A stretch of 64,000 bases of DNA from Methylocystis heyeri (GTDB lineage: Bacteria > Pseudomonadota > Alphaproteobacteria > Rhizobiales > Beijerinckiaceae), in contig NZ_CP046052.1 in assembly GCF_004802635.2 (NCBI RefSeq), positions 1,054,001 through 1,118,000 on the forward strand. Direction: 5' to 3'. The translations under genes and the position numbers were made by a program. The notes under the pieces are model-generated. The model searched no databases and was not told the origin of the DNA. It saw only the letters and a list, made by a program, of their open reading frames with translations. Positions 53,089-60,720 of the stretch are shown piece by piece (within the stretch, counting starts at the first letter, position 1; every line of letters begins with the position of its first letter).

Positions 53089-54474
53089 TCAATCGGAATT
53101 TGATGTTCTCTGACTCGGAATCAGAAGATTTCCGGCGACGGACATCCAGTCGGGGTAGTGAAGACGATCCGGCAAGCTGCGCAACACTTCCATTTTAACG
53201 AACGGAAATCCGCTTTCGACGAGTTCCTCCCAATCGCAGGTCGTCGCATTGCGCTCGTATCTGGAAGGAAACAGCGCCTTGCATCGCAACCCGGCAGCCG
53301 AAAGCCGTCCAGCCAAACGGGTTTCGTACAAATTTATAACATCCTGCTTTTCCGAAAGGCTCTCGACGCGGTTGAAGAAGTCCGCAAACGCGCGCGAAGT
53401 AAGAACGCCGGAGTTGAAGGCCAGAAAATAGCTCTGCAGGTGCCATTGCCGCTCAATATTATCCGTAAGGCCTATCACATCCGCGTCTGTGTCGCGTATC
53501 CGCCGCATGACCTCCCCGAAGGCGTCGAGATCCAAGGGTCCGACGATGCTGTCATTGATCAAATAGAGGGTGTCGATCGCATGAAGTTCTGGGTCGAGGC
53601 GCAAGAGATGCGCCCATGCAGCAAAATCAAATCCAACATTTTGCCGAATATACATGCCGTCGACGAGATCTAATAAATAGTCGTCAGCATCGCGAAACGC
53701 AGTATCGCACGCTACGATCAGCACGAGACCGACGCCATGCCGCTTCAGCGCGGAAAGATGATGTAGAATATGCGGCTTCATTCGCCCGTCAGGCGAATGA
53801 GTGACAAAGAGAGCTGTTTCACTACGGATGGACAGCGGTTTGAGGCAATCGAGCCGGGCTGAAGCAACGTCGCCGACGACGTGTAGATTAGTTCGCCGGC
53901 CTTCGTTTATGCCGTAGTGTAGATAATGCGCAAGAGGCGCAAACCCTTCTGACGAAACTTCCGGGTAGGAATAGGCATAGTAATCGCTGTCAAAGCTCGG
54001 ATGGGGAGCGCGCCGATGCTTCGCGCCCCATCGAACATAATGCGCAAGCGGGTTGGAACTCGCGCAATCGGGGTTTTTTTCGCGATAAAAACCGGTGTCG
54101 AACACCGGGTTGGGTTGGCGGCCCTCCTCGGCGCCGTACAACAAATAATGGACGAGCGGGTCTATTCCCGCGGCCGATACATCCGGATTTTGTTCAAGGT
54201 AGAACTTCGTGTCGAAAAGCGGATGGGGGTTTCGCCTCTCCTTCGCGCCACACCGGACGTAATGGACGAGAGGATTGACGCCGCTGGCGACTATGTCGGG
54301 ATATTGCTCGAGATAGAAATGCGTATCGAACAAGGGGTGGGGATTGCGCCGTTCCGTTGCGCCGTGGATCAGGTAATGGGCTACAGGGTCGACGCCCGCG
54401 GAAGCCACATCCGGATATTGCTCCAGATAGAAGGAAACATCGAACAACTGGAGGAGATCTCGGTTCTCTTTCAT
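53089..54474 (-). CDS. RgpF-like (rhamnan synthesis F) protein with N-terminal 38-residue repeats
   Basis: A 461-residue protein. Residues 11-198 hold five tandem units starting with FD at 11, 49, 87, 125 and 161, each of the form FD-x2-FYLEQYPDVA-x-AGV-x-PL-x-HYL-x2-GA-x2-RR-x-PHPL. The C-terminal ~240 residues resemble rhamnan synthesis protein F (FVTHSPDGRMKPHILHHLSAL, NVGFDFAAWAHLL, LYLINDSIVGPL, DVIGLTDNIERQWHLQSYFLAF), found with glycosyltransferases of surface polysaccharides. No other polysaccharide genes are adjacent. Slightly lower GC than neighbours. Confidence 0.8.
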   Translation of the reverse strand: MKENRDLLQLFDVSFYLEQYPDVASAGVDPVAHYLIHGATERRNPHPLFDTHFYLEQYPDIVASGVNPLVHYVRCGAKERRNPHPLFDTKFYLEQNPDVSAAGIDPLVHYLLYGAEEGRQPNPVFDTGFYREKNPDCASSNPLAHYVRWGAKHRRAPHPSFDSDYYAYSYPEVSSEGFAPLAHYLHYGINEGRRTNLHVVGDVASARLDCLKPLSIRSETALFVTHSPDGRMKPHILHHLSALKRHGVGLVLIVACDTAFRDADDYLLDLVDGMYIRQNVGFDFAAWAHLLRLDPELHAIDTLYLINDSIVGPLDLDAFGEVMRRIRDTDADVIGLTDNIERQWHLQSYFLAFNSGVLTSRAFADFFNRVESLSEKQDVINLYETRLAGRLSAAGLRCKALFPSRYERNATTCDWEELVESGFPFVKMEVLRSLPDRLHYPDWMSVAGNLLIPSQRTSNSD

Positions 54475-54680
54475 GTCATGTCGTTGTTTGCATCGTTGAA
54501 ACGACGAAGACGCCCCCAGCGAGCCGTCTGAAAGTCAGATTTATATTAGATTCTGGCGCTCGGGGGCAAGAGTCCCCCACAAAGCGCTGCGCCGCGAGCG
54601 GAAGAAATCACAGTCGACCGGGATATCGACGCCGGGAGCCATGGTTCGCGCACGTGGCGGACCGCTTCCGATCGCCTCGC
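54475..54680. other. Intergenic region upstream of the nad operon
   Basis: About 200 bases between the divergent RgpF-like gene and the nad promoter. I see no gene, repeat or terminator in it. Confidence 0.5.
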
Positions 54681-54709
54681 TTGACATATGCTCTTAACGA
54701 GCATATGTC
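54681..54709 (+). promoter_or_regulatory. nadA promoter with perfect operator palindrome
   Basis: TTGACA (54681-54686), 17 bases, then TATGTC as -10. Superimposed is a perfect 11-bp inverted repeat GACATATGCTC-TTAAC-GAGCATATGTC (54683-54709). A repressor bound here would cover the whole promoter. The ATGCTC/GAGCAT core is like what I remember for NadQ operators of alphaproteobacterial NAD genes. Confidence 0.7.
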
Positions 54710-54784
54710 GGAACGCAATCTGGTTCACGGCAGGCGCTTCTCTCAGGAGCGCACAGGTCGGTGTTCAGTATAAGAATGGCCAGC

Positions 54785-54805
54785 TTATGCTCATAATGAG
54801 CAAAA
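54785..54805 (+). promoter_or_regulatory. Second nad operator in the nadA leader
   Basis: TTATGCTC-ATAAT-GAGCAAAA, the same ATGCTC-N5-GAGCA core as the promoter site, 95 bases further downstream and 30 bases before the nadA start. Two sites about nine helical turns apart could allow cooperative or looping repression. Confidence 0.6.
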
Positions 54806-54834
54806 CCGCCTCGGGCTTATGTTAGGAGTTCGCG

Positions 54835-55938
54835 ATGAGCACGCGGTCCCTGATGGGAGAAAAATTGGCGACGGTCGCCGGGGCGGCCTCTGCAGCCGCA
54901 GGTCTTGGCGACGGTCTCGTATCGCACTTTCCCGTCGTCACCAGGCCCAATCTGGAATGGACCGCCGAGGTGGAGGCGGCGACGGCGCATCTCTACGAGC
55001 GCGTCGCCAAGGTCATCCCCCCGGTCGAGTGGCCGTTTCATGCGCCTTACGTCAAGGCCATCAACGATCTGAAGCGCGAGCGCAACGCCGTCATCCTCGC
55101 GCATAACTATCAGACCCCCGAAATTTATCATTGCGTCGCCGATTATGTCGGCGACAGCCTTCAGCTCGCCAAGCTCGCCGCCGCCTCCCCTGCGGACGTC
55201 ATCGTCCAGGGCGGCGTGCATTTCATGGCCGAGACCTCGAAGATATTGAGCCCGGAAAAGACCGTGCTGATACCGGATTCGGAAGCGGGCTGTTCGCTGG
55301 CGGCCTCCATCACCGCCGCCGATGTTCGCGCCCTGCGCCGGGAATATCCGGGCGTTCCGATTGTCGCCTATGTCAACACCTCGGCCGAGGTGAAGGCGGA
55401 AGTCGACATCTGCTGCACGTCTTCCAACGCGCTCAAGATTGTCGAGAGCCTTGGAACGGACCGGGTCATCATGGTTCCGGACCGCTATCTGGCGCAGAAC
55501 GTCGCCGCACAGACCAAGGTGAAGATCATCGCCTGGCGCGGCGCCTGCGAGGTCCATGAGCGCTTCACCGCCGAGGAGCTGGAAAGCTACCGCGCCGATC
55601 ACCCCGGCGTGAAGATCATCGCCCATCCCGAATGCCCGCGCGAGGTGGTGGAAATCTCGGATTTCGCCGGCTCGACGGCGGCCATGATCGACTATGTCCG
55701 CACCAGGAAGCCGGCGCGGGTCCTGCTCGTCACCGAATGCTCGATGGCCGACAATGTCGCGGCGGAAACCACCGGGACGGAGTTCATCCGGCCCTGCAAT
55801 TTCTGCCCCCACATGAAGCGCATCACTTTGCCGAAGATTCTCGACAGCCTGATCTACATGCGCGAAGAAGTTCAGGTCGACCCGCTGCTGGCGGAGCGGG
55901 CGCGCGCCAGCGTCCAGCGTATGATCGACGTGGGCTGA
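54835..55938 (+). CDS. nadA: Quinolinate synthase
   Basis: A 367-residue [4Fe-4S] enzyme that condenses iminoaspartate with dihydroxyacetone phosphate to quinolinate in de novo NAD synthesis. It shows [45 protein letters not shown] and the C-terminal [10 protein letters not shown]; cysteines for the cluster are present. AGGAG precedes the ATG. First gene of nadA-DUF4202-nadB-nadC, controlled by the two upstream operators. Confidence 0.96.
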
Positions 55939-56044
55939 GCTTCGCCAAGGGGCGACGCCCTTCGTCCGACCCATGCGGATCTGGGCATGGCTCCAATCTT
56001 GCCAGCGGGCGGAAGGCGGATATCACGCTTCGGGGACTTCGGCC

Positions 56045-56686
56045 ATGACCGCAAACACACGCCTTGAATCCGTCATAGCGGCGATCGACGCGGCCAATGC
56101 GGCCGATCCGCGCAAATGCGAGTTGGACGGCGAGGAAATCGCCTTCGAGAAGCTCTATTCGCGGCGCATGAGCGAAAGGCTGGACAAGACCTATCCCGAG
56201 GCTTCCGAACTGCTCCGCGTCGCGGCGCGGGCGCAGCATTTGCGTCGCTGGGAGATCGCGCGCAGCGACTACCCCGAGGGAAGGCACGGCTACAACGAGT
56301 GGCGCAAGCGGTGCCGCCTCCACCACGCCGAGCTCGCTGCGGAAATCATGCTCCGGCACGGCTATGACGAAGCGGAAACGCGCCACGTCGGGGCCTTGAT
56401 CCGCAAAGAGCAGCTCAAGAAAGATCCCGAATCCCAGGCCCTGGAGAATGTGGCCGCGCTCGTGTTCCTCGAGTGCTATTTCGGCGACTTCCTGGCCAAA
56501 TATTCCGGCTATGAGGACGAGAAGATCATCGACATCCTCGGCAAGACCTTATGCAAAATGTCGCCCCGCGGCCACAAGGCGGCGCTGGAGATGAATTTGC
56601 CCGCGCGTTCGCTCGCTCTCGTCGCCGCGGCGATCGAGAAAGAATCCGCGGCGCTGGCGCGCCTCGCCGCCGTAGCGGTCGACTGA
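56045..56686 (+). CDS. DUF4202 protein inside the nad operon
   Basis: A 213-residue, all-helical, soluble-looking protein of the DUF4202 family: RLESVIAAIDAANAADP, ELLRVAARAQHLRRWEIARSDYPEGRHGYNEWR, RLHHAELAAEIM, IRKEQLKKDPESQALENVAALVFLECYFGDF. The spaced His/Asp/Glu residues resemble an HD-like metal site, but no catalytic activity is established to my knowledge. It sits 106 bases after nadA and 4 bases before nadB, so it is transcribed with NAD genes. Start MTANTRLE chosen. Confidence 0.85.
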   Translation: MTANTRLESVIAAIDAANAADPRKCELDGEEIAFEKLYSRRMSERLDKTYPEASELLRVAARAQHLRRWEIARSDYPEGRHGYNEWRKRCRLHHAELAAEIMLRHGYDEAETRHVGALIRKEQLKKDPESQALENVAALVFLECYFGDFLAKYSGYEDEKIIDILGKTLCKMSPRGHKAALEMNLPARSLALVAAAIEKESAALARLAAVAVD

Positions 56687-56690
56687 TCCG

Positions 56691-58229
56691 ATGGAGAGGA
56701 GCTATCCGCCAATACTAATCGTCGGCGGCGGTCTCGCCGGCGTATTCTGCGCCCTGAAACTCGCCCCCTCCCCGGTCGCGATCCTCGCGCCTTCCGGCGT
56801 CGGCGGCGCTTCGTCCTGGGCGCAGGGCGGAGTCGCCGCGGCAGTCTCGGAAGGCGATACGCCCGAAACCCATGCCGCGGATACGGTTGCTGCGGGCGCA
56901 GGAATCGTCGACGCCGACATTGCTCTCGGCGTCGCGATGGAAGCCCGGGCGCGCATCGAGGATCTCGCCGCCTATGGCGCGCCCTTCGACCGCGACGCCC
57001 AAGGCCTGCTGCAGCCCTCGCGCGAAGCCGCGCACACCCATCGCCGCATCGTCCGGGTGAAGGGCGACGTCGCCGGCCGCGCCATCATGGAGACCCTGGC
57101 GCGGCAGGTGCGCGAGACGCCTTCCATCGAGGTGATCGAGGGCGTCACGGCGTACGATATCGTCATGGCCGGAGGGCGCGTCGCCGGAATCTGCGGCCAT
57201 GACGCCGAGGGGCGCGAGCGCTTCATTCCCTGCCGCGCGCTCGTGCTGGCCACGGGAGGCGTCGGTCATCTCTACCGGGTCACCACCAATCCTCTCGACG
57301 CCTGCGGCGCCGGCGTCGCCATGGCCGCGCGCGTCGGCGCGCATATCGCCGACGCGGAATTCGTTCAGTTCCATCCCACCGCCATCGACATCGGCGTCGA
57401 TCCGGCGCCGCTCGCCACCGAGTCGCTGCGCGGCGAAGGCGCGCTGATCGTCGACCGGGACGGACGCCGCTTTTTGCTCGACGCCGACCCGGCCGCCGAA
57501 CTCGCGCCGCGCGACATCGTGGCGCGGGCGGTGTTCAGCAGCATCGCGCAGGGCAAAGGCGCTTTTCTCGATGCGAGGGCGGCGGTCGGGGAGCACTTCC
57601 CCGCGAGGTTCCCCACCGTTTACGCAAGCTGCATGGGCGCCGGGATTGATCCGGTGAAAGACGCGATTCCCATCGCCCCGGCGGCGCATTACCACATGGG
57701 CGGGATCGCCACCGACGCCAACGGCCGCACCACGGTCGCCGGCCTCTGGGCCGCGGGCGAAGTCGGCTGCACCGGGTTGCACGGGGCCAATCGCCTCGCC
57801 TCCAACTCCCTGCTGGAGGCCCTGGTCGTCGGGGCGCGGGTCGCCGTCGACATTTTGTGCAGCGACGCGCTGAACCAGTCCGTCGGCGCCCCTGCCGATC
57901 TGCCTCGCTTTGGCTACGACCCCAATGAAGGCGCGGTGATCGAGGAGCTTCGCGACGTCATGGCCTCCCATGTCGGCGTGGTGCGCGACGGCGCCGGCCT
58001 TTCTCTTGCTCTCGAGCGGATCGCCCGGCTCGGCGCGCAGACCAAAAGCTCAAGAGCGCAAAACATGCTGACGACCGCCATGCTCATCGCCAGCGCGGGT
58101 TTCGTCCGGCGCGAGAGCCGGGGCGCGCATTTCCGCTCCGATTATCCGGAAAGTTCGGCCGCGTTCGCGAAGCGCTCCCGCTTTACGCTCGGCGAGGCGC
58201 AGGAAATCGCAAGGCGGGCCGCGCCATGA
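56691..58229 (+). CDS. nadB: L-aspartate oxidase
   Basis: A 512-residue FAD enzyme that oxidises aspartate to iminoaspartate for NadA. FAD-binding [40 protein letters not shown], the active-site region [10 protein letters not shown] and [10 protein letters not shown], and [20 protein letters not shown] are intact. It starts 4 bases after the DUF4202 stop and its own stop overlaps the nadC start by four bases (ATGA), so these are translationally coupled. Confidence 0.96.
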
Positions 58230-59095
58230 GCGAGCTTCCCGCCCTGCCCGCCCAAACGGTCGAGAGCGCGGTTCGCGCCGCTTTGCTCGAAGACCTCGGC
58301 CGCGCCGGCGACATCACCACCCAGGCCACCATTCCCGCTTCGGCGCGCGCCACGGCCGTGATCGCCGCGCGCGAAGCCGGCGTCGTCGCCGGCCTCGCCC
58401 TCGCCAAAGAAGCCTTTCGCCAGACCGATCCGGCGGTGAGCTTCATCCCCTGCCTCGAGGACGGAGCCCGCGCAACCGCCGGCGCCGTGATCGCCAGGAT
58501 AGAGGGACCGGCGCGCGGAATTCTCTCGGCGGAGCGGGTCGCGCTCAATTTCCTGGGCAGGCTTTCGGGCGTTGCGACTCTGACCTCGCGATATGTGGAG
58601 AAGATTTCGCACACCCGCGCCAAGGTCTGCGACACCCGCAAGACGACCCCCCTGCTCCGCGCTTTTGAAAAATACGCGGTGCGCTGCGGCGGTGGCGCCA
58701 ATCATCGCTTCGGCCTCGACGACGCGGTGCTGATCAAGGACAATCATATCGCTGTCGCCGGCGGCGTTACTGCGGCGCTCCGCGCGGCCAAGGCTTTCGT
58801 CGGCCATCTGGTCAAGATCGAGATCGAGGTCGATACGCTCGATCAGCTGCGTGAGGTTTTGAGCGCGGGCGCCGATGTCGTGCTGCTCGACAATATGCCG
58901 CCAGAAAAGCTGCGCGAGGCGGTCGGGTTGATCGGCGGGCGCATGGTGGCGGAAGCCTCCGGCGGCGTGACGCTGGACACCATCGCCGCGATTGCCGAGA
59001 CCGGCGTGGACCTCATCTCCATCGGCGCCCTGACCCACTCCGCCAGGGTGCTGGATCTGGGGTTGGATATAGAGATGGATTCCGGTCCACGGTGA
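58226..59095 (+). CDS. nadC: Nicotinate-nucleotide pyrophosphorylase (quinolinate phosphoribosyltransferase)
   Basis: A 289-residue enzyme converting quinolinate and PRPP to nicotinate mononucleotide, completing the NadB-NadA-NadC route. It has [19 protein letters not shown], the PRPP/quinolinate-binding [40 protein letters not shown] and the C-terminal [23 protein letters not shown]. Length and motifs are standard. Overlaps nadB by four bases. Last gene of the operon; no obvious terminator noted. Confidence 0.96.
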
Positions 59096-59949: not shown

Positions 59950-60720
59950 ATGGACGAGCTTTTAAACCAGATCGCCGTAAAAAAGGCTGCGCTCGATCGT
60001 TTGCGCCCGCTGTCGGGGCCGGCCCTGGCGCAGCTGCAAAAACACTATGACGTCGATCTGACCTACACGTCCAACGCGATCGAGGGCAACACCCTCACTC
60101 TACGCGAGACGGCCGAAGTCATCGAGCACGGGATTACTGTCGGCGGCAAATCGCTTCGCGATCACCTCGAGGCGGTCGATCATTATGATGCGCTGCTCTG
60201 GATGCGCGAGCTTGCGGCGGCGACCACGCCCGTCGATGAAAACGCCGTATGCGAATTGCATCGGCGCATCGTCGCTCGCAGCCAGCCTCAGATTGCAGGA
60301 ATTTACAGCCGAAACCCGCGCCGGATTGCGGGCTCCCCAGTCGTTTTCCCGAACCCGGCCAAGATTCCCCAGCTCATGGAGGAGTTCGGCGCGTGGCTGA
60401 CGACTGCGCCCGTGACGCCGGCGGCGGCCTTCGAGGCGCATTATCGCCTCACCGCCATTCATCCTTTCGCCGACGGCAACGGGCGCTCGGCGCGGCTTTT
60501 GATGAATCTTATTTTGATCCGCGGTGGCTACCCGCCGGTTGCGGTGCGGCCCGAAGATCGCAAGGCTTATCTCGATAGCCTTGAAAGCGCTTCGCTGGCG
60601 GACGATCCTGCTCCCTACCAGACTTTCATGCACCAGCGCCTGGACGCGACTTTGGCGGAGTATCTAAGCGTTTTGCGGGAAGCGCTTCCGCCGCCTATGC
60701 CCAACGCTGGGGGCGAATGA
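59950..60720 (+). CDS. Fic-family protein (AMPylase-type)
   Basis: A 256-residue protein with the Fic active site HPFADGNGRSARLL (HxFx(D/E)GNGRxxR), needed to transfer AMP from ATP to a target hydroxyl. An N-terminal TSNAIEGN matches the inhibitory helix motif (S/T)xxxE(G/N) of class II Fic proteins, where the Glu blocks the ATP site, so the enzyme should be self-restrained. No HTH domain is visible. It is flanked by toxin-antitoxin remnants. Weak ribosome-binding site. Target unknown. Confidence 0.9.
   Translation: MDELLNQIAVKKAALDRLRPLSGPALAQLQKHYDVDLTYTSNAIEGNTLTLRETAEVIEHGITVGGKSLRDHLEAVDHYDALLWMRELAAATTPVDENAVCELHRRIVARSQPQIAGIYSRNPRRIAGSPVVFPNPAKIPQLMEEFGAWLTTAPVTPAAAFEAHYRLTAIHPFADGNGRSARLLMNLILIRGGYPPVAVRPEDRKAYLDSLESASLADDPAPYQTFMHQRLDATLAEYLSVLREALPPPMPNAGGE

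Follow-up and report, generated by a model that had tools for sequence, protein, structure and literature searches.

The gene for a DUF4202 protein interrupts the NAD synthesis operon of Methylocystis heyeri, raising the question of whether its product serves NAD synthesis or has a different role and is merely carried in that operon. We have approached this question from the layout of the locus, the predicted fold and conserved residues of the protein, its distribution among genomes, and the genes that accompany its relatives elsewhere.

Results

The DUF4202 gene shares an operon and its operators with nadABC

The window is the whole stretch of 64,000 nucleotides analysed here (contig NZ_CP046052.1, positions 1,054,001 to 1,118,000); the features of the locus are collected in Table 1. 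An earlier note on this DNA had placed the DUF4202 gene between nadA and nadB, 4 bases from nadB and behind the nad operators, and this arrangement is confirmed by the coordinates, the NCBIfam assignments and the palindromes. The DUF4202 frame stops at 56686 and the ATG of nadB lies 4 bases further on; nadB shares its last 4 bases with nadC. The product of 56045-56683 matches PF13875 over residues 9-193 (E 7.7e-68) with 228.4 bits, above the Pfam gathering cut-off of 35.1 bits, and no other Pfam family, PF01966 (HD) included, matches it up to E 1. An alternative in-frame ATG is present upstream at 55973; the proteins of relatives begin near 56045. The genome of the window contains one DUF4202 copy only.

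Table 1. Coordinates of the nad operon, the embedded DUF4202 gene and the NadQ-type operators within the window
Feature	Position	Strand	Basis
NadQ-type operator 1, perfect 11+5+11 palindrome around TGCTCTTAACGAGCA	54683..54709		sequence; consensus from PMC5343134
NadQ-type operator 2, TGCTCATAATGAGCA core at 54788	54786..54804		sequence; consensus from PMC5343134
nadA, quinolinate synthase	54835..55938	+	curated NCBIfam equivalog
DUF4202 gene, 213 aa, predicted degenerate HD-superfamily fold	56045..56686	+	PF13875 match, predicted model
nadB, L-aspartate oxidase	56691..58229	+	curated NCBIfam equivalog
nadC, quinolinate phosphoribosyltransferase	58226..59095	+	curated NCBIfam equivalog

The motif TGCTC-N5-GAGCA occurs at exactly two sites in the window, 54689 and 54788, both just 5' of nadA; with 10 fixed bases, chance would produce about 0.06 sites in a stretch of 64 kb. 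The motif agrees with the NadQ consensus published for Proteobacteria (PMC5343134). A scan of 54560-56760 turned up no sigma-70-like promoter; terminator-like sites were absent from the + strand and numbered three on the - strand. DUF4202 thus shares an operon and operators with nadABC in the window. The possibility that nadQ itself lies beside nadA was rejected, the conserved gene 5' of nadA in relatives resembling pyrB in its first residues. Two further genes of the region were recorded: one for a 461-aa protein built of ~38-residue repeats on the theme YLEQ(Y/N)PDV...G..PL.HY (53089-54474, - strand), and one for a Fic/DOC family protein downstream of nadC (59950-60720, + strand).

A predicted HD-derived fold with replaced metal ligands

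The predicted model of the window protein (pLDDT 94.2, pTM 0.89) has as its best VIA match the HD hydrolase 2pq7 (Z 12.1 over 154 residues at 3.8 Å), with lower scores for YpgQ (Z 11.4), Dup1 (11.4), SdeD (10.6) and human Mesh1 (10.1); middling Z values are easily reached by helical folds. Foldseek ranks SdeD first (probability 1.00, E 0.077) and YpgQ second (0.99), with no match below E 0.001. Sequence searches of solved structures returned no relative for the single protein, and a profile search gave weak, chance-level rows only, among them one for the HD enzyme DatZ (E 0.91). The sequences of L103 and L105, two divergent relatives, are recognised by the DUF4202 model and by the HD model alike. 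The predicted structure thus suggests that DUF4202 has an all-helical fold derived from the HD superfamily.

When aligned by profile, the HD ligands of L105 fall at DUF4202 positions 38, 64, 65 and 135. In DUF4202 these positions of the H...HD...D pattern hold Y38, Q64-H65 and D/N135 (N135 in the window), and Y38, Q64 and H65 are each present in 76 of 77 aligned rows. The HD-like character that the earlier note had attributed to the protein therefore holds at the level of the fold, as indicated by the model, Foldseek, VIA and the two divergent relatives, but not for the HD metal ligands, which are replaced. With three of the four ligands exchanged for other, nearly invariant residues, a canonical metal phosphohydrolase is unlikely, and this reading was rejected. 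Because the ligands are replaced, DUF4202 in all likelihood dispenses with the metal pair typical of HD proteins and is probably independent of metal. The hybrid HD/DUF4202 protein at L105:344-2222 has kept the canonical HD ligands; its gene overlaps by 11 bases another whose product combines NTP_transf_3 and CDP-alcohol phosphatidyltransferase domains.

Eight residues, R68, R73, Y83, W86, R87, K121, E134 and K171, are identical in all 77 rows, and R62 is found in 75; H94 is not invariant, and no cysteine occurs among the conserved positions. Nad-embedded and other copies have 28 conserved positions in common, and nine are specific to the nad context, five of them in a C-terminal tail that is longer in the nad-embedded clade. 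Position 135 is N in that clade versus D in 48 of the 55 other rows. (The A1 set covers 21 of 22 loci, with L016 omitted and L022 included together with its unrelated N-terminal extension.) R62, R68, R73, R87, K121 and K171, together with Y38, Q64, H65 and E134, probably hold a negatively charged ligand; being positively charged, such a set could accommodate a poly-carboxylate tetrapyrrole no less than a phosphate.

One interpretation of these features is that DUF4202 is a metal-free phosphodiesterase or nucleotide binder of broad use, like the SidE/Dup proteins or the alarmone/NADPH hydrolases, placed in varied redox operons. SdeD and YpgQ at the head of the Foldseek results, the VIA scores for Dup1, SdeD and Mesh1, and the conserved Arg/Lys/His/Glu set are all consistent with it, and DupA offers a precedent, its catalysis relying on two His and one Glu with a His-linked intermediate (PMC6941232). 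However, the Z values do not separate one branch of the HD superfamily from another, no Foldseek match lies under E 0.001, and DUF4202 is the sole Pfam assignment. The order of H65, H94 and E134, which are conserved to varying degrees, also differs from that of the DupA catalytic residues H67, E126 and H189 (PMC6941232), and H94 is not invariant. This interpretation furthermore leaves unexplained the CbiX fusions described below, and we regard it as somewhat unlikely.

Nad placement is faithful in one lineage and not seen elsewhere

The order nadA-DUF4202-nadB-nadC recurs in 20 of 22 relative loci from genome contigs, the two exceptions being Marivivens MAGs. The gap between DUF4202 and nadB measures -4 to 7 bases in 19 of the 20 and 20 bases in the last (L002). 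In the GTDB family of the window, 26 of 199 genomes have a DUF4202 match, including nine of the ten members of g1, the window's own genus (Methylocystis-type). All 17 sampled DUF4202-positive genomes of g1 and of a second genus, g489 (Methylosinus-type), have the gene in the nad operon, and in seven further positive genomes of the family the DNA read around DUF4202 contains no nad gene. Among 16 DUF4202-free relatives with readable nadA surroundings, nadB is directly next to nadA in 12; another DUF4202-free relative (G882) ends at the contig edge. Since nadA and nadB are adjacent in most relatives that lack DUF4202, the gene was most likely inserted between them once.

The tree agrees with a single nad-embedded group. 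It contains 97 rows including duplicates; L103, where no DUF4202 gene was picked, and L105, which is divergent, were dropped. The 36 nad-embedded rows, which are not independent in that the same contig can appear twice (e.g., L002/L167, L005/L160, L008/L157 and L012/L162), form one clade (99/92). This clade is nested in a 41-row clade (100/100) with L089 from a nirBD locus, L091 and L093 from dsr/apr loci, and copies from ribosomal operons, and other DUF4202 genes from the window's own family are placed elsewhere in the tree. The simplest reading is that a DUF4202 subfamily entered the nad operon from outside that family.

The two Marivivens copies (L010:7995-8642 and L022:7749-8543) lie, by our reading of the proteins, inside the ribosomal spc operon, flanked by genes resembling those of L30 and L15; they adjoin an ORF of 164 aa that no Pfam family matches.

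The picture changes in wider samples. DUF4202 was detected in 34 of 398 genomes of an even phylum sample and in 20 of 385 genomes of a class sample; only two of the 34 are nad-linked, both from g1. Outside g1 and g489, 13 of 53 DUF4202-positive genomes have no NadA (11 of 49 among the well-completed ones), and in the 40 that do, NadA is never closer than ~20 kb (nearest in G471). Linkage to nad genes is therefore not a feature of the family as a whole. A survey for co-occurrence with nad genes had been proposed as a check on the NAD hypothesis, with a location mostly next to unrelated genes counting against it, and the survey largely gives that outcome: DUF4202 is mostly found beside other genes. 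Transport as phage or mobile cargo was also considered and rejected, there being no DUF4202 in 50,697 phage records; 38 pattern matches among viral contigs yielded no confirmed case.

These distributions bear directly on a lineage-specific role in NAD synthesis, in which the protein would remove a side product, whether phosphorylated or reactive, or aid the transfer of iminoaspartate from NadB to NadA. The presence of the gene in the nad operon of every positive g1 and g489 genome, the tight spacing to nadB and the NadQ-type operators upstream all argue for it, and a tight placement so faithfully kept is itself evidence for such a role in that lineage, which is why we continue to consider it there. 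Against it are the two nad-linked genomes out of 34 at phylum level, the absence or distance of NadA in the other positive genomes, the direct nadA-nadB junction of most DUF4202-free relatives, and the same conserved set in nad and non-nad copies. The role with NAD intermediates suggested in the earlier note thus retains its nad link in the Methylocystis/Methylosinus-type lineage and does not generalise beyond it; within that lineage we consider it unlikely.

Some relatives accompany siroheme, nitrite and sulfur genes

Neighbours were mapped in 55 non-nad loci, a selection of which was annotated by HMM. Deposited annotation was read for eight records, two of which had none, and genes in unannotated loci were called with a home-made codon-score picker seeded with the DUF4202 and Nad matches. 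CbiX is the sirohydrochlorin chelatase. In two loci a single open frame encodes both DUF4202 and CbiX: L095:8356-9696 (- strand; DUF4202 at residues 7-187, CbiX at 220-314, E 7.7e-20 in two stretches) and L098:8518-9846 (- strand; DUF4202 at 24-197, CbiX at 337-419, E 2.8e-10). The two fusions come from two families and lie on separate branches of the tree. Other long frames, such as those of L091 (637 aa), L099 (408 aa) and L078 (359 aa), differ from these two in that DUF4202 is their sole Pfam domain, and have probably been called too long. L090 and L097 each have a cbiX-like gene that shares 4 bases with DUF4202, and in L118, L121 and L127 cobA or cysG adjoins DUF4202 or lies within a few kb. 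DUF4202 relatives are thus found both fused to and in apparent operons with siroheme genes.

Genes of nitrite and sulfur metabolism form a second group of neighbours. nirB, nirD or nasA neighbour DUF4202 in L084, L089 and L121, and genes of these types lie 6-8 kb away in L108. In L091, L093 and L118 the gene stands amid dsr/apr genes, the dsr letters being our reading of the families: it is flanked by dsrP-like and dsrN-like genes in L093 and by a dsrN-like gene and cysG in L118, and in L091 it lies 3' of aprA and runs convergently with a dsrN-like gene. A Crp/Fnr family gene is immediately 5' of DUF4202 in L088, L108, L126 and L128, and nor-type genes (NorQ, VWA, COX1-type subunit) are beside it in L088 and L126. 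A siroheme, nitrite or sulfur link is present in ~12 of the 55 loci, or 15 if the Crp/Fnr-nor loci are added; no such link was seen in the other 40, whose neighbours are only partly annotated. One genome (G124) carries six DUF4202 copies (L039, L043-L047), two of which (L039 and L044) encode an additional N-terminal region of ~150-200 residues with cysteines.

Among 52 genomes with a single placed DUF4202 copy, NIR_SIR lies within 12 kb of it in six, compared with an expectation of ~1.0 as an upper bound (Poisson 7e-4). NirB is present in 29 of 34 DUF4202-positive genomes and in 158 of the remaining 364 (Fisher 2.5e-6, uncorrected for kinship); the 34 include G430 and G461, whose copies are divergent and HD-like and without which the counts are 27 of 32 versus 160 of 366.

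NadA, NirB, Dsr and Apr are cluster enzymes, and methanotrophs make NOx. A factor that shields or repairs siroheme and Fe-S enzymes exposed to nitrosative or oxidative stress would fit the occurrence of cluster enzymes in the nirB, dsr, apr and nad contexts, the Crp/Fnr genes directly upstream in four loci and the nor-type genes in two, yet the conserved positions lack cysteine, such neighbours are absent at most loci and the CbiX fusions indicate a cofactor and not damage, making this a rather improbable explanation.

Discussion

We favour, at a probability of roughly 40%, the reading that DUF4202 descends from the HD superfamily, has been re-wired so that it probably needs no metal, and is linked to siroheme or tetrapyrrole chemistry, its gene having been taken into the nad operon in type II methanotrophs. 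The CbiX fusions on two branches, together with the cobA/cysG, nirB and dsr neighbours, point to siroheme or a close relative of it, and since relatives are fused to or located beside siroheme, nitrite and sulfur genes, a siroheme-type helper is likelier than a dedicated NAD enzyme. In the paper collection searched, no account of a siroheme connection was found for this family, and a full-text search of it gave no paper on DUF4202 or PF13875.

The family may bind or oxidise sirohydrochlorin or precorrin-2, hand it over to the chelatase, or otherwise service siroheme enzymes. In an ancestor of the Methylocystis/Methylosinus-type lineage, a member of a subfamily otherwise located in nirBD, dsr/apr and ribosomal loci would have been inserted once between nadA and nadB. 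The gene now appears spaced for translation coupled to that of nadB and is presumably under NadQ control, and its product may have kept the siroheme role.

Several observations count against a siroheme role. The 40 mapped loci in which no siroheme, nitrite, sulfur or Crp/Fnr-nor link was seen do so, as does the tight nad placement. No CbiX match was found in the window's genome, and the CysG N-terminal (precorrin-2 dehydrogenase) domain is present there, so that no siroheme step is missing for DUF4202 to fill. TIGR01470 is absent from 12 of 27 genomes with both NirB and DUF4202 versus 18 of 80 with NirB and no DUF4202 (Fisher 0.046, uncorrected for kinship, the 80 controls being a hand-picked part of the NirB-positive list). 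As a candidate replacement for precorrin-2 dehydrogenase, DUF4202 is nevertheless weak, given the CysG N-terminal domain in the window's genome and the counter-examples G442 and G663, which belong to the same families and have neither DUF4202 nor TIGR01470.

NirB-positive genomes without a CysG N-terminal match are an observation in their own right (G420, G424, G456, G502, G535, G669, G703, G729, G731, G741 and others). Whether they carry DUF4202 or, like G442 and G663, do not, they may mark a gap in the known synthesis of siroheme.

A stronger form of the siroheme reading, which we think doubtful, is that DUF4202 is an unrecognised metal-free HD-derived siroheme protein, acting for instance on precorrin-2 or sirohydrochlorin, that partners CbiX and has come under NadQ control in type II methanotrophs. 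If so, NAD synthesis and the supply of siroheme, the nitrite reductase cofactor, would rise together. The conserved nad insertion is a natural system in which to ask whether the two are coupled in methanotrophs. The CbiX fusions offer a concrete and cheap first test of DUF4202 function.

Comparison with known systems

The window protein is a full-length match to DUF4202 (PF13875), a family without a described function, and the nad-embedded clade differs from the other members in N135 and its longer C-terminal tail. The HD superfamily (PF01966; 2pq7, YpgQ) has a fold like that predicted here, but its H, H, D, D ligands contrast with Y38, Q64, H65 and D/N135. The SidE/DupA-type phosphodiesterase domains have in common with DUF4202 an HD-like fold, predicted in its case, and a non-classical active site; they differ in the order of the His and Glu residues, and the two have no sequence match and no common context. 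The siroheme enzymes of the CbiX/SirB-CysG type are of a different kind from DUF4202, which no Pfam model assigns to the chelatases, methyltransferases or Rossmann dehydrogenases, and they are the partners of its relatives, by fusion or by adjacency.
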